A stretch of DNA of 41,179 nt from a virus: positions 1 to 41,179 of the IMG/VR virus record IMGVR_UViG_3300018411_000007; one strand, 5' to 3'. Below are positions 3,368-34,223 of this stretch, piece after piece (positions within the stretch are counted from its first letter, which is position 1; each line of letters opens with the position of its first letter). Position numbers and translations under genes: made by a program. The notes below the pieces were generated by a model. The model was not told the origin of the DNA. It did no database searches and was given only the letters and a program-made list of their open reading frames with translations.

Positions 3368-5112
3368 GAGAATTTCCTGCGACCAACGACATACTTGTTA
3401 TTGCCGTTGATTCGGTACGCGATAGCCTTCGGGGTCATGAATGCCCCAGCCATCTTCACAATCTGCTCAGCGGTGCTCATGGATGCGACCCGCCCACGCC
3501 ATCCTGGCTGAACGTAGACATCGACAAATTCCTTTTTCAGAATGCGCCTCGACAACTCGCCACCCATCGGGAATATCAGGTACGGCTGACGCTCGTCACC
3601 ATAGAGGGTGAAGCGCACCATCAGAGCCCCTACTTTCGTGTTCAGCACGTCCATCTTCTTAACGCCCACCATTTCCTCATCTGAATACGGATGATGCAGC
3701 AGCGCCTTGTTTGAGTCCCTTAACTCGCGCCTGCATGACGGATTCCGGCATTCATTAGCTGCAATATCGTTTTCAGTCTGGCAGTCTGGGCAAATCTGTG
3801 ACGTCCAGAAGAAGCCACAGCGTTTATCAGGCTCAGACTCATCCTTTGCCCGGCAGCGACGAGCGGCCTTGCTGTTCATCTCCTGGCATCGCTGGCATGG
3901 CTTATCTTCACCGCGAGACTTATCACGCTGCGCCAGCGCCTCGCCGGTAGTCGGGTCGTCCAGCAAATGCCCAAGCCGGTCGAATACCCCGGCATAGTCC
4001 AGCACCAGATAGTTCTCTTTGTGGAAACCGGCCTCTTCCATCCACTCCTCCAGCAGGCGAGCGCCACGCCCCATTGACTGAATCAGTAACACCAGTGAAC
4101 CAATCGGGCGCAGGTAAACCACCACGTCAATCATGGGCGAGTTAAAGCCAGTGGTCAGCACCGACACGTTAATCAGCCAGTCTAGCTTTCCTTCCTTCGA
4201 CAGCTTGATAACCCGGTCTTTCTCCGCATCGCTGGAATCGTCTGTGACCAGGCCAATCTTTGACTTGTCGATGCCCAGGGCAATCAGGATGCGGCGAATC
4301 TCCCTGGCGTGTCGCTTTGTCGATGCAAAGACTATCCGCTGGTTTCGGTCTTTCGTCTTCTCAATGACCTGCATCAGAATGTTAACCAGCTTCTTCTTGC
4401 CAGCGTCTGACATGGCGATTTCGTCCAGTTCTTTCTCACTGAACTCCCATGAGCCGCTGCGAGTTTCTACGCCTGAGAAGTCGATAGCATCGTCATCAGC
4501 ATCCGGGAACCCATAGACCGGAACAGACAGGAACCCCATCTCGGTAAGTCGGTCGACGCCGATGTCGTAAACAACTTCATGCCAGAAGTCGAACGTGGTC
4601 AGGTGGGCAGTGCCTCTGAATGGCGACCCTGTAACGCCAACGATATGCAGCAGGCGACCGGATTTTTTCGCCACATCTGATAAGTGCGCGATGATGCGCA
4701 TGAATTGCGTGTCTTCATTTTCAATGTCTACCTGGTGGCTTTCATCGATTAATAGTAAATCAACTGGCTTGTTGAAGTCGGCAAGGCCATTAACAATCGT
4801 TCCCTCTGTGCCTACTGTAACCTGATACACTTGGCGCTTATTGAACTTGGCGGCGTACATCCCAGCCGGGACGCCAAAGTCATAGAACTCACGATAGGTC
4901 TGCTCAGCAAGAATGGGCTGGCGGGCAATCTGCATCACGCGACCACCACGCTCATGTACGTGCTGCGCGATGATTGCCATCATGATGGTTTTCCCCGCGC
5001 CTGCTGCTGCATCAATCAGAATGCGACTGGCGACACACTTCTTCGAGTTTTCCCGGATGCGGTGTATCACCGCCTCCTTTGCTTCAGTCTGGTAAAATCG
5101 TGGTTGTTTCAT
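3364..5112 (-). CDS. SF2 DNA helicase with Cys-rich insertion
   Basis: The product is 582 residues. Motif I (DAAAGAGKTIM) is at about 34-44, motif II is DESH at 123-126, motif III (GVTGSPFRG) is near 158, and helicase C-terminal motifs include IVFASTKRHAREI and QSMGRGAR. It is a RecG/RadD-like SF2 ATPase expected to translocate on DNA. At about residues 410-470 lies a Cys-rich stretch with paired CxxC (CQRCQ, CPDCQ) and CRNPSCR, probably one or two zinc ribbons. It starts the unit behind the promoter at 5143-5170 and overlaps the nuclease gene. Its exact substrate is not determinable. Confidence 0.92.
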   Translation of the reverse strand: MKQPRFYQTEAKEAVIHRIRENSKKCVASRILIDAAAGAGKTIMMAIIAQHVHERGGRVMQIARQPILAEQTYREFYDFGVPAGMYAAKFNKRQVYQVTVGTEGTIVNGLADFNKPVDLLLIDESHQVDIENEDTQFMRIIAHLSDVAKKSGRLLHIVGVTGSPFRGTAHLTTFDFWHEVVYDIGVDRLTEMGFLSVPVYGFPDADDDAIDFSGVETRSGSWEFSEKELDEIAMSDAGKKKLVNILMQVIEKTKDRNQRIVFASTKRHAREIRRILIALGIDKSKIGLVTDDSSDAEKDRVIKLSKEGKLDWLINVSVLTTGFNSPMIDVVVYLRPIGSLVLLIQSMGRGARLLEEWMEEAGFHKENYLVLDYAGVFDRLGHLLDDPTTGEALAQRDKSRGEDKPCQRCQEMNSKAARRCRAKDESEPDKRCGFFWTSQICPDCQTENDIAANECRNPSCRRELRDSNKALLHHPYSDEEMVGVKKMDVLNTKVGALMVRFTLYGDERQPYLIFPMGGELSRRILKKEFVDVYVQPGWRGRVASMSTAEQIVKMAGAFMTPKAIAYRINGNNKYVVGRRKFS

Positions 5113-9609: not shown

Positions 9610-10993
9610 ACTTTCCGCCGAAGACATCGCCACCCTGCGATGCGACCTCCTGGAGTTTTCCAAATACATGTTCAAGGCCCGAAAGGGCTTTGACTTTGTG
9701 GAGAACTGGCACCATGCGAAAATATGCGAGGCACTGGAGCGCTGCTTCATAGGCCAGTACAAGCGCCTGATTATCAACATTCCCCCTCGATACTCCAAGA
9801 CTGAGCTTGCCGTGGTCAACTTCATGGCATGGGCTATCGGGAACTATCCTGATTGCGAATTCATCCACGCCAGTTACTCCAAGCGCCTTGCTGCCAATAA
9901 CACCTACCAGGCTCGAGCCATCGCCATGTCGGAAGAGTACCGGGCTGTGTTTGGTGATATAGGCATGATGGCAGATGCTAAAGCGAAGGATGAATGGCGA
10001 ACAAAAACAGGCGGCTGCGTCTATGCCACTGGCTCAGAAGGGACCATTACCGGGTACGGCGCAGGGAGATTGCGTGAAGGCTTCGGCGGCGCCATCATAA
10101 TTGATGATCCGCATAAGGCAAGCGAGGCCAATTCTGACACCATGCGCCAGAATGTCATCGACTGGTTCCAGACCACGATGGAATCCCGCCTGAACAGCCC
10201 CGACACGCCAATCATCGTCATTATGCAGCGACTTCACGAGGAAGACCTAGCGGGCTGGCTACAGGCTGGCGGCAATGGAGAGGAGTGGCATGTAATTAAC
10301 ATACCTGCTGTAAACCCTGACAACACCGCTCTGTGGCCCTTTAAGCACTCGCGTGAGAAACTGGCAGAGATGGAAGCCAGCAACCCTTACGTATTCGCCG
10401 GTCAGTACATGCAGCGCCCTGCACCGAAAGGCGGCGGCCTGTTCAAAGATAGCTGGTGGCAATGGTACGACAACAGCTTTGTGCACCCGGAGTGGGAGTA
10501 TCGCGTAATTTACGCTGACACCGCACTCAAGACAAAAGAACATAACGACTGGTCTGTATTCCAGTGCTGGGGATTCAAGGGTGGCCATGCTTACCTGCTC
10601 GACCAGATTCGCGGCAAGTGGGAGGCCCCAGACCTTATAAAGCAGGCTCGCGCATTCTGGGAATTGCACAAGTCGCCGATAAACCGTGGATTCGTGCGCG
10701 GCATGAAGATTGAGGACAAGGCCAGCGGAACCGGCCTGATTCAGACCTTAAAAATGGAAGGTGTGCCCGTCATACCGATTCAGCGCTCGGTCGATAAATT
10801 CACCCGCGCTCTGGATGTGCTACCACAAATTGAGGCTGGACTGGTTCATTTGCCGAAGGATGTTCCGTGGATGCCTGGATACATCGGTGAGTTCTCCGTC
10901 TTCCCCAACGGCAAGCACGATGACCAGATTGACCCCACTCTTGACGCCATATCAGACAACCTCGTGACAGGCTACAACCTTTCCGCCTGGTAA
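9593..10993 (+). CDS. terL: Terminase large subunit
   Basis: The product is 466 residues. The N-terminal ATPase has the packaging-type Walker A NIPPRYSKTE and Walker B GAIIIDDPHK, with the coupling motif around VIIMQRLHEEDLAGWL. The C-terminal RNase H-like nuclease shows VIYADTALKTKEHNDWS and the last acidic motif KHDDQIDPTLDAI. It pumps DNA into proheads and cuts it. AAGGAAGT precedes the ATG. The portal gene is 10 kb away because the lysis and leftward accessory modules lie between. Confidence 0.96.
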   Translation: MAQAIKLSAEDIATLRCDLLEFSKYMFKARKGFDFVENWHHAKICEALERCFIGQYKRLIINIPPRYSKTELAVVNFMAWAIGNYPDCEFIHASYSKRLAANNTYQARAIAMSEEYRAVFGDIGMMADAKAKDEWRTKTGGCVYATGSEGTITGYGAGRLREGFGGAIIIDDPHKASEANSDTMRQNVIDWFQTTMESRLNSPDTPIIVIMQRLHEEDLAGWLQAGGNGEEWHVINIPAVNPDNTALWPFKHSREKLAEMEASNPYVFAGQYMQRPAPKGGGLFKDSWWQWYDNSFVHPEWEYRVIYADTALKTKEHNDWSVFQCWGFKGGHAYLLDQIRGKWEAPDLIKQARAFWELHKSPINRGFVRGMKIEDKASGTGLIQTLKMEGVPVIPIQRSVDKFTRALDVLPQIEAGLVHLPKDVPWMPGYIGEFSVFPNGKHDDQIDPTLDAISDNLVTGYNLSAW

Positions 10994-19738: not shown

Positions 19739-19985
19739 TATCATCGGCGCAATCACAGCGCTAATCCTCGGCGCTATCGGGCTCTGGTTCGGCGGAAAGT
19801 CTCGCGGAAAGTCCGAGCAGAAAGCAAAGTCCGAAATGCAGCAGGCCCAGCAATCCGTGGCGCAAGAGAAAGCCCGCACAGAATCCGTTAAGGTGGCAAG
19901 CGATGTTAAAGATGAAGTTATGCGCAGTAATCCTGATTCTGTCCGCGACAAGTTGCGCGACGAATGGACCCGTCCAGGTAATTGA
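19722..19985 (+). CDS. Rz-like inner-membrane spanin
   Basis: The product is 87 residues with an N-terminal membrane anchor (LSSIIGAITALILGAIGLWF) and a long periplasmic coiled coil (KSEQKAKSEMQQAQQSVAQE). AAGGA is eight bases upstream of the ATG, which lies inside the end of the holin gene. Together with the overlapping lipoprotein gene it forms a two-component spanin that fuses inner and outer membranes at lysis. Confidence 0.85.
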   Translation: MLTLSSIIGAITALILGAIGLWFGGKSRGKSEQKAKSEMQQAQQSVAQEKARTESVKVASDVKDEVMRSNPDSVRDKLRDEWTRPGN

Positions 19986-20133
19986 TTCAAGCTGCGACTG
20001 GGTTCAGCCAATATGGATGGATGCCGGGGAAATCGACCACATGACCGATGGCACCCTGCGCCAGATTCTTACCCACAATGAGACATGGAAGAAAAAGTGT
20101 AATGGGGATAAAATGCCAGCCAGTAAAGGTTGA
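19903..20133 (+). CDS. Rz1-like outer-membrane lipoprotein spanin
   Basis: The product is 76 residues and begins in another frame inside the Rz-like gene, the classic Rz/Rz1 nesting. It has a lipoprotein-type signal (KLCAVILILSATSC) with Cys18 as the probable lipidated residue; the -3 residue is Ala instead of the usual Leu. AAGGTGG precedes ATG 19903. It is longer than lambda Rz1 and less Pro-rich. Confidence 0.8.
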   Translation: MLKMKLCAVILILSATSCATNGPVQVIDSSCDWVQPIWMDAGEIDHMTDGTLRQILTHNETWKKKCNGDKMPASKG

Positions 20134-20158
20134 CATGATAACCCGATTGAGCAATACT
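20130..20158 (+). promoter_or_regulatory. Putative promoter reading into the structured non-coding region
   Basis: TTGACA (20130-20135) in the GGTTGACA context, overlapping the TGA of the Rz1-like gene. Seventeen bases later AATACT (20153-20158) or, with a 19-base spacer, TACTAA (20155-20160). The -10 is weak. Confidence 0.45.
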
Positions 20159-20163
20159 AATAT

Positions 20164-20184
20164 CACAACGTTGCTCCCGTTGTG
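20164..20184. repeat. Hairpin CACAACG/CGTTGTG
   Basis: Perfect 7-bp inverted repeat with loop TTGCTCC. An alternative pairing GAGCAA (20149-20154) with TTGCTC (20171-20176) would exclude this hairpin, so two mutually exclusive folds are possible. Confidence 0.6.
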
Positions 20185-20264
20185 GTTGTGAAGGTATTTC
20201 GTGTTCCTTAATGCACGATGACGCGGGAAAAGAACCGTGACAGGAGGGAAGTAGACCCCGCGAA

Positions 20265-20344
20265 CACAACAGGTAAGGGCATTGACTACACCAGATAAAT
20301 CTTCGGATGCAATGGTAAAACCATGCAGTGCCCTTATCGTTGTG
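20265..20344. repeat. Long-stem inverted repeat, unit A
   Basis: CACAAC (20265-20270) pairs with GTTGTG (20339-20344); after one bulged A, GGTAAGGGCA (20272-20281) pairs with TGCCCTTATC (20329-20338) with one G-U. Inside, ATGGT (20312-20316) pairs with ACCAT (20320-20324), extended by TGC/GCA. Confidence 0.75.
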
Positions 20345-20442
20345 ACCAGCAAGACCATTCTCGGGGCGTGATTATCTTAACGGTAGCGTTTCGTGCTGGG
20401 CTGGCAAGTCGTTAAGCTTGAAGGTGTAACTGGTGCGGACAC

Positions 20443-20564
20443 CCACAACGCAACGATAAGAATATTGACCACGGAAAATCTCCGATGACCGTGACGTAAT
20501 ATGATGGGAATGCGAACCGTAAAAGATGTAGCATGGAGTCCATCCAGTATTCTTATCGTTGTGG
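20443..20564. repeat. Long-stem inverted repeat, unit B
   Basis: CAACGATAAGAATA (20451-20464) pairs perfectly with TATTCTTATCGTTG (20548-20561). An alternative outer pairing CCACAACG (20443-20450) with CGTTGTGG (20557-20564) is possible because CAACG is duplicated on the left. Internal stems: CACGG/CCGTG (20470-20474, 20489-20493) and GATGG/CCATC (20503-20507, 20540-20544), giving a multi-branched fold. Confidence 0.75.
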
Positions 20565-20705
20565 TGCAGGTTGCAGCAACTCTTGGCGATAGCAACCATA
20601 TTACGCTAAGGGTGAGAGCCACAGCAAATCGGTCAACTTAGTTGACACCGGACGCGTAACCGGCAATTACCAGATAAGAGCATTAACATCATAGCGCGCG
20701 CAGCT

Positions 20706-20732
20706 TGCAGTACCTTTTTATTGGTAACTGCA
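20706..20732. repeat. Hairpin in the leader of the Tad2-like gene
   Basis: TGCAGTACC (20706-20714) pairs with GGTAACTGCA (20723-20732) with one bulged A and an 8-base U-rich loop. It ends 12 bases before the start codon and abuts the ribosome site (GAGGG), so it could affect translation. Confidence 0.65.
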
Positions 20733-20744
20733 GAGGGTAATGGT

Positions 20745-20999
20745 ATGGATATGAATTTTGGTAATGCTGTTAATGCCATGGAAGTAGGGAAAAAGGTAGC
20801 TAGAAAAGGATGGAACGGCAAAGGAATGTTTCTTTTCATCGTCGCTGGTGATGCGTGGGGATTAGAAAGCGATATTGAAGGAATTGATGGCCTCTGCGGA
20901 GCGCCATTTATTTGCATGAAGACAGCTGATAACAAACTTATACCATGGCTGGCTAGTCAATCTGATGTTTTGGCTGAAGATTGGCAGGAAGTTAATTAA
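20745..20999 (+). CDS. Tad2/DUF2829 family protein (candidate anti-Thoeris)
   Basis: The product is 84 residues with the DUF2829 pattern: MNFGNAVNAMEVGKKVARKG, WNGKGMFLFIV, then FICMKTADNKLIPWLASQSD and LAEDWQEV. DUF2829 includes Tad2, a phage protein that binds and sequesters the cyclic nucleotide signal of the Thoeris defence system. The homology is clear by pattern; ligand binding here is inference. ATG 20745 has GAGGG eight bases upstream (the frame is open from 20721; ATG 20751 is an alternative). It ends on an intrinsic terminator and forms its own unit with the structured region before it. Confidence 0.88.
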   Translation: MDMNFGNAVNAMEVGKKVARKGWNGKGMFLFIVAGDAWGLESDIEGIDGLCGAPFICMKTADNKLIPWLASQSDVLAEDWQEVN

Positions 21000-21020
21000 C
21001 CCGCTCCGGCGGGTTTTTTC
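20998..21020 (+). terminator. Intrinsic terminator after the Tad2-like gene
   Basis: AACCCGC/GCGGGTT around a TCCG loop, followed by TTTTTTC. It insulates the accessory region from the portal gene. Confidence 0.92.
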
Positions 21021-21035
21021 TTATCCACATCCTCG

Positions 21036-21044
21036 TGATATACT
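21036..21044 (+). promoter_or_regulatory. Extended -10 promoter before the portal gene
   Basis: TG-A-TATACT with no good -35 at 17 bases. It lies between a terminator and the portal gene, where a new late transcript must start. Confidence 0.55.
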
Positions 21045-21070
21045 GACGTTAATTTTCATGAGGAATCAAA

Positions 21071-22456
21071 ATGGCTAAGAAGCCCCACCTCAAGCTACAC
21101 AATGACGGCAGCATGTCATATCGCGTGGATGCGTGGGCTAACCCCATCTCCGGGCAGGGCATGCCGGGCATCGACAAAAGCCTCGGGCAAATGCTGTCGC
21201 CTGCATTTTCTCATTTGCTGCATAACAACCAGCAGGTGCTGACCAACATCTACCTTTCGGACTGGCTGGCTCGTAAAATCTGCGACCTTCCGGCTGAGGA
21301 TGCCACCCGCAAGTTTATCGAAATAACCGGGCTGGATAGCGAGGATAAAAAGCGCGTAGAAACCATGCTTGATGACATGGGTCTTCGTGCATCTGTGCGC
21401 AAGGGCATCGCCTGGTCCCGCCTGTTCGGTGGTGCTGGCGTCCTGAAGGTTTACGATGACTCACGGCCGCCAGAATCACCGCCATCAGAAACAGCGGCTA
21501 TCATCGACCTCATCACGCTCGACCGCTGGTCATTGAGTGTTGATGAAATCGACCTAGACCCTGAGTCTCCGCATTATGGGCGCGCGCTGAATTATGTAGC
21601 CCGCAACGGCGTTAAATATCACCGCGGCCGAATTGCGCCTTTCTATGGCTGCTCAGTGCCATACGATACCCAGATTGAATTGCAGGGCTGGGGTGGCTCA
21701 TACGTCGCAATGGCATGGTCTGCGATTGCCGCATATAACGAGACTTTGCAGGATGCCTCATTCCTGCTGAAAGAGTCTGGCGTCGGCATCCTTTCAGTGC
21801 CAAACCTGACAGCGGCGCAATCAATGGGCATGACGGCATCTCAGGCCGTAATGAACCGTGCAAACGCCTTCAATCAGGGCAAGTCTATTTACCGCGCCGC
21901 CGTGGTGGACTCCGCTGAGAAATTCGAATTCGTTAACCGCTCACTCCAGGGCATCCCCGACTTCGTTGACCGATTCGCTACTGCGGTGGCTGGCGCGACG
22001 GGACTGTCTGAAATGATGCTGTTCGGCAAGTCTCCGGCAGGGCTGAATGCCAGTCAGGAAGAAATCCTGTCGGTTTACTACGACAAGATTGCCGCGATTC
22101 AGGAAGGCGATCCGTCTGCGCTGGTGAAGTCATGTATTGATAACGTGAAGATGCAGACAGGACTGGACTTCGACTGGAAGTGGGCAGAGCTTAGCGCGAT
22201 GTCGCCTGACAAGAAAGCAACGTCGATGGCATCGGTTGCGACGGCAATTTCAACGCTTGAGCAATCTGCTGCGCTCACGCCTAACGAGGTGCGCAACCTG
22301 GCTAACGATACCGGCCTGTTCTCTCTGGAAGAATTGCCAGAGGATGACAATTCGAATGATGACCCGTTAGGACTTAACTCACTCGGTGGCGAAAATGGCG
22401 CAAACGGAATTCCAGAAGCAACTGGAAGCACTGAAGCCGGACAAGAGGAAGCGTAG
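21071..22456 (+). CDS. Portal protein (DUF1073-type)
   Basis: The product is 461 residues. ARKICDLPAEDATRKFIEIT, the ASVRKGIAWSRLFGGAGVL segment, YNETLQDASFLLKESGVGIL and ATAVAGATGLSEMMLFGKSP followed by GLNASQEEILSVYYDKIA are typical of DUF1073 portals. Portals form the dodecameric vertex for DNA passage and terminase docking. The C-terminal 40 residues are acidic and low-complexity. It overlaps the next gene. Confidence 0.9.
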   Translation: MAKKPHLKLHNDGSMSYRVDAWANPISGQGMPGIDKSLGQMLSPAFSHLLHNNQQVLTNIYLSDWLARKICDLPAEDATRKFIEITGLDSEDKKRVETMLDDMGLRASVRKGIAWSRLFGGAGVLKVYDDSRPPESPPSETAAIIDLITLDRWSLSVDEIDLDPESPHYGRALNYVARNGVKYHRGRIAPFYGCSVPYDTQIELQGWGGSYVAMAWSAIAAYNETLQDASFLLKESGVGILSVPNLTAAQSMGMTASQAVMNRANAFNQGKSIYRAAVVDSAEKFEFVNRSLQGIPDFVDRFATAVAGATGLSEMMLFGKSPAGLNASQEEILSVYYDKIAAIQEGDPSALVKSCIDNVKMQTGLDFDWKWAELSAMSPDKKATSMASVATAISTLEQSAALTPNEVRNLANDTGLFSLEELPEDDNSNDDPLGLNSLGGENGANGIPEATGSTEAGQEEA

Positions 22457-31987: not shown

Positions 31988-33555
31988 TGGCGTTTGTCAC
32001 TGAGCTTTTGGGTTATATCGGCCTTGATGTTGATGACGCCTCATTTAATGAGGCTGAGCAGTCCGTTAAGGGCGTTACTAAGGTCATGGCTGGCCTTGTC
32101 ACCATTGCGGCATCAGTGGCTACAGCGGTCACTGGCGCGGCTTATGCAATGGTGAATGACTTCGCCAATACTGCAACAGAGCTTGACCAGTTAACAAAGC
32201 GCCTTAACGTCAACGCAGAAGCATTCCAGGCTACGGCATACGCAGCAAAATCATACGGTATTGAGCAGGACCAGTTAGCAGACGGCATGAAAGAGCTGTC
32301 TATGCGTGCTGGTGAATTTGCGCTTACCGGTGAGGGTTCATTCAAGGATGTTGCATCCCAGCTCGGACTGACCCGCAAACAGGTAAAATCCTACGGAAAC
32401 GATGTTAACGGCCTGTTTGACCTGGTGCGCGATAAGCTGGCTGGGATTCAGAATCAGGGTCAGCGGCAATTCCTTGCTGATGCCCTGTTCGGTGGCGGTC
32501 TGGCTGATGTTGGCGGTGAGTTTTTCTCGCAGACCTCCGCAAGCATCGCGGAACTTCAGAAGCAGGCGCGAGAATCCGGGCTGGTAATTAGCCAGGATAC
32601 GCTTGATATGTCCCGCGAATATACGCGAGAAATGGACGCGCTACAGGCTAGGATTAAAGGCTTGTGGAATATCGTCGCATCAAATCTTCTGCCGGTATTC
32701 ACGCGCATCACCAGACAGGCAAAGGAGTTTTTCGACCTACATGGTGAGGATATCGTAGACGGCCTGACCGCTGCGATTAACGGACTCATTACCGCCATCA
32801 AATACCTGGGCGTAGCCGCAGCCATTGCCATGCCTTACCTGATTGGTTCAGCCGCTATCGCGTCATGGGTCAAACTCATCGCGCTGACTAATGCGCTAAC
32901 GACGGCATTTGCCACACTGCGAGTTGCCGCTCTGCTGGCATGGGCTTCCGCTGCCCTTTTCCCTGTGCTTATCGGCCTGGCTATCGGCGCTGCAATAATT
33001 GCCATTCAGGATTTATACGGCTACTTCAACGGCAGCGACTCGATTACCGGGCGCATCATTGAAAGTTTCAAAGGAATGGATTTAAGCGTCAGGAAGATAT
33101 GGGACGGCCTTGTTGATTACATCATTAAGGCCATAGGCAAGATAGATACAGCCCTTTACAACGCCATGCCTGAATGGGCGCAGAAACTTATGACGTTCAT
33201 GTCTGGCGGGTCGTACAACCCAAACAGGAATTATAAAACACAAAGCAACCTACAGCCTGAAATTCCTGGCCATGAGCGCATTCCTGGGTACGTGGAAATA
33301 GTAAAAGGCGCAAACAGGCAGTTAGACATACCTAACGATAATGTTATTGCCCCGCCAACAATGGCGCAAGGGATGGCGCAGGCTAATGCTGGTCGAGGAA
33401 ATGTCATTACCACTAACAGCGGGAATACAACAGTTGGCGAGATTATTGTCAATGGCGCTGAGAATCCGGCTGCAACAGCTCAGGCTATACGGCAGGAGCT
33501 ACGCAGAGACAACGCATCCAGAACGAAAGGAAGCGATACGGGGGTTAGATACTGA
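31987..33555 (+). CDS. Tail tape measure protein
   Basis: The product is 522 residues. The N-terminus FVTELLGYIGLDVDDASFNE and the GLVTIAASVATAVTGAAYAM segment, LDQLTKRLNVNAEAFQATAY and strongly hydrophobic helices at about 260-350 (GVAAAIAMPYLIGSAAIASW, ALFPVLIGLAIGAAIIAIQD) are usual for tape measures. The short length implies a short tail. TGATG overlap with the frameshift product. Confidence 0.9.
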   Translation: MAFVTELLGYIGLDVDDASFNEAEQSVKGVTKVMAGLVTIAASVATAVTGAAYAMVNDFANTATELDQLTKRLNVNAEAFQATAYAAKSYGIEQDQLADGMKELSMRAGEFALTGEGSFKDVASQLGLTRKQVKSYGNDVNGLFDLVRDKLAGIQNQGQRQFLADALFGGGLADVGGEFFSQTSASIAELQKQARESGLVISQDTLDMSREYTREMDALQARIKGLWNIVASNLLPVFTRITRQAKEFFDLHGEDIVDGLTAAINGLITAIKYLGVAAAIAMPYLIGSAAIASWVKLIALTNALTTAFATLRVAALLAWASAALFPVLIGLAIGAAIIAIQDLYGYFNGSDSITGRIIESFKGMDLSVRKIWDGLVDYIIKAIGKIDTALYNAMPEWAQKLMTFMSGGSYNPNRNYKTQSNLQPEIPGHERIPGYVEIVKGANRQLDIPNDNVIAPPTMAQGMAQANAGRGNVITTNSGNTTVGEIIVNGAENPAATAQAIRQELRRDNASRTKGSDTGVRY

Positions 33556-34223
33556 TGCTTATCTTCGAACCCGGAAAGCTGAGAAAGCTGTTTGGCAGCG
33601 ACTACAACCAGATTTCAGTCATTCCGATTGATGTGACTCAGGTTGAGACGCATACGTTTAACCACACCATCACCCGCAAGCCAGTGCAGGACGGGGCGAC
33701 AATCTCAGATAACATCCTGATTGAGCCAGACAGTGTGACCATTCAGGGAATCTTCACTGACCAGTCACTACTGAATAAGGGGATTGAACTTGTTCAGTCA
33801 GCACTGGATGACGGATTTACCCCGTCCACAATGAGCACGTGGGAAGACAAGCTCGCCAAGCTGCATGAGATTCGCAAGATGCGCGAGCCGTTTACGCTGG
33901 TGACGTCACTTGGCACCTACAAAAACATGTTCTTTGATGGGCCTATTACCGTCAATCGTGACCTGACGACCAGCGACGCGCTTTTCTTCACAGCCACGCT
34001 GACTGGCATTAACATAATCTCAGCACGAACCACGCAGGTTCCTGCCAGTGCAATGAGCGACAACAAAAATGGCGGGTCGAAGAAGATGGCCCCGAAAAAG
34101 GATGTTGGCAAGAAATCGAATACCGCTGGTCAGACTAACGCCGCGGGACAGAAGGTTAGCACCGCCACCCAGGATCGCTCAAAAACATGGGCAGTTAGCA
34201 TTAAAGACTGGTTAACTAAATAG
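33555..34223 (+). CDS. Dit-like baseplate/tail protein, 222 residues
   Basis: MLIFEPGKLRKLFGSDYNQI, IPIDVTQVETHTFNHTITRK and the beta-rich PFTLVTSLGTYKNMFFDGPI segment resemble Dit-like/DNA-circularisation-type proteins that start the baseplate. The C-terminal 60 residues are basic and low-complexity. It overlaps the tape-measure stop by one base. Confidence 0.72.
   Translation: MLIFEPGKLRKLFGSDYNQISVIPIDVTQVETHTFNHTITRKPVQDGATISDNILIEPDSVTIQGIFTDQSLLNKGIELVQSALDDGFTPSTMSTWEDKLAKLHEIRKMREPFTLVTSLGTYKNMFFDGPITVNRDLTTSDALFFTATLTGINIISARTTQVPASAMSDNKNGGSKKMAPKKDVGKKSNTAGQTNAAGQKVSTATQDRSKTWAVSIKDWLTK

Follow-up and report, generated by a model that had tools for sequence, protein, structure and literature searches.

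Phages carry several kinds of small or structured RNA to which the locus described here can be compared. T4 RNA C and RNA D (species 1 and 2) are small stable RNAs of unassigned function that lie inside a phage tRNA cluster, the prophage small RNAs STnc100/PasD, AgvB, AsxR and IsrJ occupy the Q/PR' late-leader site, and the large ornate RNAs of the GOLLD/ROOL type are long structured RNAs found in phages near tRNAs. Our locus is an array of units, here called cassettes, in which a constant closing stem (the frame) surrounds a variable core. T4 RNA C/D are its nearest counterparts by context and STnc100, PasD, AgvB and IsrJ its nearest counterparts by niche, whereas the constant-stem, variable-core design is absent from all of them. 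The array lies in a stretch of 41,179 bases from a single virus record (hereafter the window), which carries a 123-base direct repeat at its ends and therefore probably represents a complete circular genome.

A previous, sequence-only reading of the locus had known of no matching RNA class, in agreement with our searches. No Rfam 15 family matched the window at gathering scores, including those of the GOLLD/ROOL type, which the array resembles as a long structured phage RNA near tRNAs; a permissive scan of 20000-20800 yielded a 14-bit chance match at best; and neither Rfam 15 nor the open-access PMC literature searched describes a family of constant stem and variable cores. The array family thus belongs to no named RNA family and appears to be new, although an account of it may exist outside the open-access PMC literature. 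Comparison of T4 RNA C/D with the frame and with the two cores of the window, A and B, gave only short chance-level stretches outside phage Moon (E >= 0.027), and homology to the frame was rejected because no sequence match was found; in Moon, an RNA C homologue shares the tRNA cluster with core B. The prophage small RNAs are unlike the cassettes in sequence and structure and have no Rfam match in the window. STnc100 and IsrJ nevertheless adjoin cassettes at two loci (L103 and L076): the STnc100/PasD model (RF02076), which finds nothing in the window, matches the L103 neighbours, where two strong STnc100 copies and a weak third (4011-4186) stand in tandem at 3782-4460, downstream of the cassette.

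Some cores and linkers contain a tRNA-like T-arm, which in several linker elements (for example L110, L185, L173) is canonical and sits flush on an acceptor-like helix of 7-8 bp; unlike tRNAs, these units have no anticodon arm or CCA. A tRNA or tmRNA in the window itself was considered and rejected, as ARAGORN detected no tRNA and Rfam neither. The permuted tmRNA (RF04321) offers a further likeness, since tmRNA-like pieces, possibly representing phage permuted tmRNA, are found next to cassettes in EC1-UPM, ZBSTP8 and other phages. They score 25-34 bits, below the gathering score of 47, contain the tag frames ANDDVVLMAA* or ANEEMYLAVA*, lie beside or within cassettes (L004 about 2800-2970, L005 3054-3223, L013 2736-2844, L016 3152-3202, and L080) and are absent from the window array.

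The gene-poor stretch and its elements

A stretch of about 590 bases in which no gene can be recognised, close to the 600 previously noted, separates an Rz-like spanin gene (PHROG_1275), which ends at 20133, from the neighbouring plus-strand gene for a Tad2-like (Thoeris anti-defence 2-like) protein at 20721-20999 (PF11195, E = 5.6e-26). Minus-strand open reading frames overlap the array, none of them with a Pfam or PHROG match, and a protein-coding reading was rejected because the frames lack a family match and are not kept in related arrays. A sigma70-like promoter (TTGACA-17-AATACT, plus strand) is located at 20130-20158; it agrees with the consensus at 10 of 12 positions, a count not above chance by itself, is the sole promoter-like site in 19950-21080, and is retained at the same place, as TTGACA-17-GATACT, in the sister phage BUCT618. 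An intrinsic terminator on the same strand (20998-21015) follows the Tad2-like gene. Behind this promoter, the nearest relative BUCT618 has cassette A, then tRNA-Ile and finally the terminator seen in the window, where the Tad2-like gene occupies the place of this tRNA. The Tad2-like gene is possibly part of the same transcript as the array.

The evidence, drawn from sequence comparison and predicted folds, favours the interpretation of 20130-20720 as a plus-strand array of structured RNA units. Both large inverted-repeat units of the sequence-only reading are present, as is their common end, CTTATCGTTGTG; they share one conserved closing stem of about 18 bp, whose paired arms surround unrelated cores. 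Cassette A (20264-20344, plus strand) consists of frame arms at 20264-20284 and 20326-20344 and core A at 20285-20325. Cassette B (20451-20561, plus strand) has a 17-bp frame stem (20451-20467 with 20545-20561), composed of 14 Watson-Crick pairs followed by U.G and two more, around a core with a pseudoknot between CUCC (20480-20483) and GGAG (20535-20538). Relative to shuffled sequences, a control that had been proposed from the outset, the two cassettes fold with z = -5.5 and -4.7, and the region 20240-20580 with z = -3.3 on the plus strand and -0.95 on the minus strand. Three GATAAG-like starts, at about 20273, 20455 and 20674, are likewise real. The third belongs to a plus-strand element at 20641-20690 that comprises a leading hairpin and a 5' arm only and has a fold that does not exceed chance level (z = +1.0); since it lacks a 3' arm and matches the 5' parts of cassettes in ZBSTP8, BUCT618 and KP13-27, it is a probable remnant of a truncated cassette.

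Several further elements had escaped the sequence-only reading, namely the promoter, a pseudoknotted linker and the helices of type GTTGTGN/N'CACAAC that close the linkers. A short leading hairpin (CACAAC...GTTGTG, 20164-20184, plus strand), read directly from the sequence and conserved in BUCT618, overlaps a first plus-strand linker-type element closed by GTTGTG/CACAAC (20179-20270, z = -2.5), the 3' part of which also stands upstream of a cassette in L045. Linker element 2 (20339-20449, plus strand) contains, as derived from a 12-sequence alignment, a closing helix (20339-20344 with 20444-20449), an inner helix, a long hairpin, a pseudoknot (20377-20382 with 20410-20415) and a terminal hairpin (20423-20443). 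Linker-type element 3 (20558-20625, plus strand, z = -2.1) is again a direct reading; its closing helix, GTTGTGG/CCACAGC, includes a G.U pair.

One frame and its many cores

When used as a blastn query, 20130-20720 matched as a whole block only in close relatives, whereas separate pieces recurred in unrelated phages, including T4-like, N4-like, T7-like, jumbo and siphovirus phages as well as lambdoid prophages. Core A was found in the T7-like phage phiKDA1, the N4-like EC1-UPM and the Jedunavirus SBP, linker sequences in Bas81, Geezett and CU10EC, and core B in the T4-like Moon, the jumbo phage GAP32 and the N4-like Pylas; Salmonella phage PSH-1 was 95% identical across linker and B. At these loci, the cores differ and the frame is constant (5' CACAACAGGTAAGAGCATTG ... 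CAGTGCTCTTTCCGTTGTG 3'). A scan of public viral contigs with the 5' arm returned at least 120 matches, many of those listed being contigs derived from bacterial genomes. Many of the phages concerned infect gut bacteria. Scanning the fetched loci for both arms identified 236 cassettes, distributed over 218 loci, whereas the reversed-sequence control yielded none. These contain 153 distinct cores of 27-211 nt, which single linkage groups into about 71 families, so that the earlier impression of conserved long stems with differing sequence between them holds well beyond the window. The tRNA T-loop motif is present in 15 cores, compared with 0.3 expected.

A single widespread core is present in 336 of the 5,426 E. 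coli genomes, and all E. coli cassettes that we looked at are in prophages. With one genome per species, the exact frame pattern was detected in 6 of 246 genomes in a family and in 2 of 274, the centre among them, in the class to which this family belongs; such low counts would be expected of a prophage element that varies between strains. Six non-enteric assemblies (L241, L250, L253, L255, L258 and L262) contain a cassette with the exact frame and core length of lambda, in some cases on contigs of roughly 1x coverage, and probably reflect contamination with an E. coli lambda lysogen. A hammerhead-type catalytic core lies within the cassette core in L161 (384-430; Hammerhead_1, 28.7 bits, below the gathering score of 34), in L102 (about 10476-10515) and in L080. 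Long-stem units of the N4 type (for example L281, 2703-2795 and 2937-3042) have other closing sequences in a similar layout, which suggests further frame classes.

It is conceivable that the cassettes merely shape transcripts, serving as processing or stabilising stems (RNase III or RNase P sites, 5' or 3' protection) of late transcripts and tRNA precursors, with the cores as neutral filler. The conserved frame with its differing cores speaks for such a role. In addition, the Q-dependent late leader of lambda and many prophages has a cassette as its first unit behind tR', and in lambda RNase III processing sites have reportedly been described in this leader (Daniels et al. 1988, Virology), which we treat as a lead only. 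The cores, however, do not behave as neutral filler. Core A is about 92-96% identical in BUCT618, ZBSTP8 and phiKDA1, even though phages as different as phiKDA1 and BUCT618 are involved (about 82-85% in EC1-UPM and SBP), and the pseudoknotted fold of core B is kept across unrelated phages, even where the frame is missing. We therefore regard a purely architectural role as rather unlikely.

Covariation, strand and the linkers

The sequence-only reading had suspected selection on structure, a view against which a lack of covarying pairs in homologues would have spoken; such pairs are present in the frame, the linker and core B. Among 105 distinct frames, 17 of the 18 pairs are present in over 90% of the sequences, and the remaining one reaches 90%. 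Double changes occupy 53 cells in 14 columns, compared with 7.8 cells in 4.2 columns when the arms are re-paired randomly, and are thus visible even though the sample, found by sequence patterns, leans towards the consensus. G.U cells outnumber A.C cells by 159 to 30, which, together with the stronger plus-strand fold, favours plus-strand RNA as the selected product of the cassette family. The base sequence of the frame is conserved beyond the needs of pairing alone, so that a sequence-specific binder or recombination possibly also acts on it.

In an alignment of nine core B sequences, including those of GAP32 and another jumbo-size contig, 14 pairs have changed on both sides, and the pseudoknot varies between CUCC/GGAG and CGCC/GGCG. 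Moon and GAP32 lack the frame sequence and retain the closing pairs and the core B fold. The 12-sequence alignment of linker element 2 comprises 32 pairs with 96.6% of cells paired; both sides have changed in 13 pairs, pseudoknot included (UUAACG/CGUUAA in the window, UUAACU/AGUUAA in L006, UUAACC/GGUUAA elsewhere), a result equalled by none of 500 shuffles. A model of this linker, run against 277 kb, matched only its source sequences or near-identical copies.

The motif CCACAAC follows the GTTGTG of a cassette within about 200 nt in 79 of 229 cases, compared with 2-3 for permuted words. The pair next to GTTGTG/CACAAC covaries among distinct elements (G-C 46, A-U 8, C-G 6, G.U 6), with the pseudoknot linker class showing an unpaired A/C (11) at this position. 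Because GTTGTG is often followed by a downstream CACAAC, it has two possible partners, this motif and the 5' arm of its own cassette, and two competing helices use the GTTGTG strand in most loci.

The conservation of the frame sequence also bears on the proposal that the units are selfish or recombinational DNA, palindromes spread by recombination at a shared frame and devoid of an RNA role. The frame does provide 19+19 bp of shared homology, and the same cores occur in unrelated phages. Yet the bias of G.U over A.C and the covariation of the pseudoknots require RNA, and units near tRNAs are co-oriented with them. Moreover, REP/BIME palindromic repeats are scattered over the host chromosome, whereas a search of 5,426 E. 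coli genomes and 72,556 plasmids gave no match to the window array. A purely DNA-level explanation hence appears improbable. The earlier alternative between several RNAs and mobile units was right in part on either side, as the units behave as RNAs and the cassettes move between unrelated phages. At the level of sequence, selection on structure, modularity, exchange from phage to phage and co-location with tRNAs can be regarded as established, and a plus-strand product is favoured.

Genomic context and possible function

In BUCT618, Bas81, ECO111 5-P, Moon, Pylas, GAP32 and the prophages L094 and L105, units adjoin co-oriented tRNAs. The RefSeq tRNA annotations of Citrobacter phage Moon (L007) are opposite in strand to the ARAGORN calls, by which their strand labels are wrong. 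In N4 (L281), an unannotated 1.5-kb gap (32113-33632) upstream of the Tad2-like gene gp49 contains four tRNA genes (Rfam, 50-78 bits) and long-stem units; the RefSeq record shows no tRNA there. The position of the array directly upstream of the Tad2-like gene in the window, and of a similarly structured gap in N4, could point to a riboregulator of this gene, as the sequence-only reading had proposed along with a packaging RNA. However, a Tad2-like protein is encoded in only three of the 18 array phages checked (the window, N4 and CU10EC), a distribution that led us to reject a Tad2 partnership, and the units occupy varying positions, before holin genes, between tail genes and in tRNA clusters, which argues against a packaging RNA or site as well. 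Both roles are very improbable.

In lambdoid prophages, gene Q is followed by a poly-T terminator, a cassette and the holin gene. In lambda itself (L284, NC_001416.1), a cassette (44787-44862) immediately follows tR' (44763-44783) in the Q-dependent late leader and is accompanied by a linker element (44857-44941); the annotation of this stretch shows only the final part of orf-64 and a non-coding gap before S. BL21(DE3) carries this cassette through its lambda prophage. In the minimum-energy fold of lambda, GTTGTG pairs downstream and leaves CACAACA single-stranded. The frame could act as an sRNA sponge, with the CACAACA of its 5' arm, freed by this pairing, binding the GU-rich R1 seed of the host RNA GcvB. 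The phage RNA AgvB, which comes from the PR' moron site, targets GcvB via the same motif (PMC4104026), and GcvB contains GTTGTG repeats. By contrast, some frames replace CACAAC/GTTGTG with CTATC/GATAG or AAATCTGG/CCAGTTTT with pairing kept, the window array contains a single CACAACA, and a crude duplex test of lambda against GcvB, not informative in itself, showed nothing. A sponge function therefore seems improbable.

Most probably, the units are processed small RNAs that belong to a pool of cassettes exchanged horizontally and that would interfere with the RNA or translation of the host or with defences directed at RNA, a proposal suggested by their constant ends, fast-changing cores, spread among unrelated phages, tRNA mimicry and tRNA/moron niche. 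Specifically, the array may be made as a single plus-strand precursor, probably bounded by the promoter at 20130 and the terminator at 21015, and may have this terminator in common with the Tad2-like gene. In this precursor, cassettes would alternate with linkers closed by GTTGTGN...N'CACAAC. RNase III could cut the frame stem of 18 bp, which includes a U.U mismatch and whose length and double-strandedness suit this enzyme, and tRNA-processing enzymes may trim the linkers, some of which are tRNA-like, with a T-arm on an 'acceptor' of 7-8 bp, thereby releasing small stable RNAs. The cores, in the least certain step, would form a rapidly exchanged arsenal that binds or diverts host RNA-handling proteins, translation proteins or tRNA-targeting defence proteins, which would explain why constant ends are combined with dozens of unrelated cores. 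For the array as a whole, we see about an even chance that it is a plus-strand precursor of processed small RNAs with exchanged cores acting as decoys. A wider and somewhat less likely reading is that the RNA-only gene cassettes, a constant processing stem joined to one of more than 70 independent cores (tRNA-like, pseudoknotted or resembling a hammerhead ribozyme), represent a swappable counter-defence or host-takeover arsenal that enterobacterial phages, lambda included, exchange horizontally.

If this proposal is correct, a large class of structured phage RNAs has been overlooked, one of them in the late leader of lambda, which has been studied more than any other temperate phage. Many gaps left unannotated beside phage tRNA clusters and lysis genes would then be accounted for, and laboratory lambda and N4 would become systems in which to test what 'mystery' phage RNAs do. 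Moreover, the RNA cores would form a list that could at once be screened against defences that target tRNA or other RNA.
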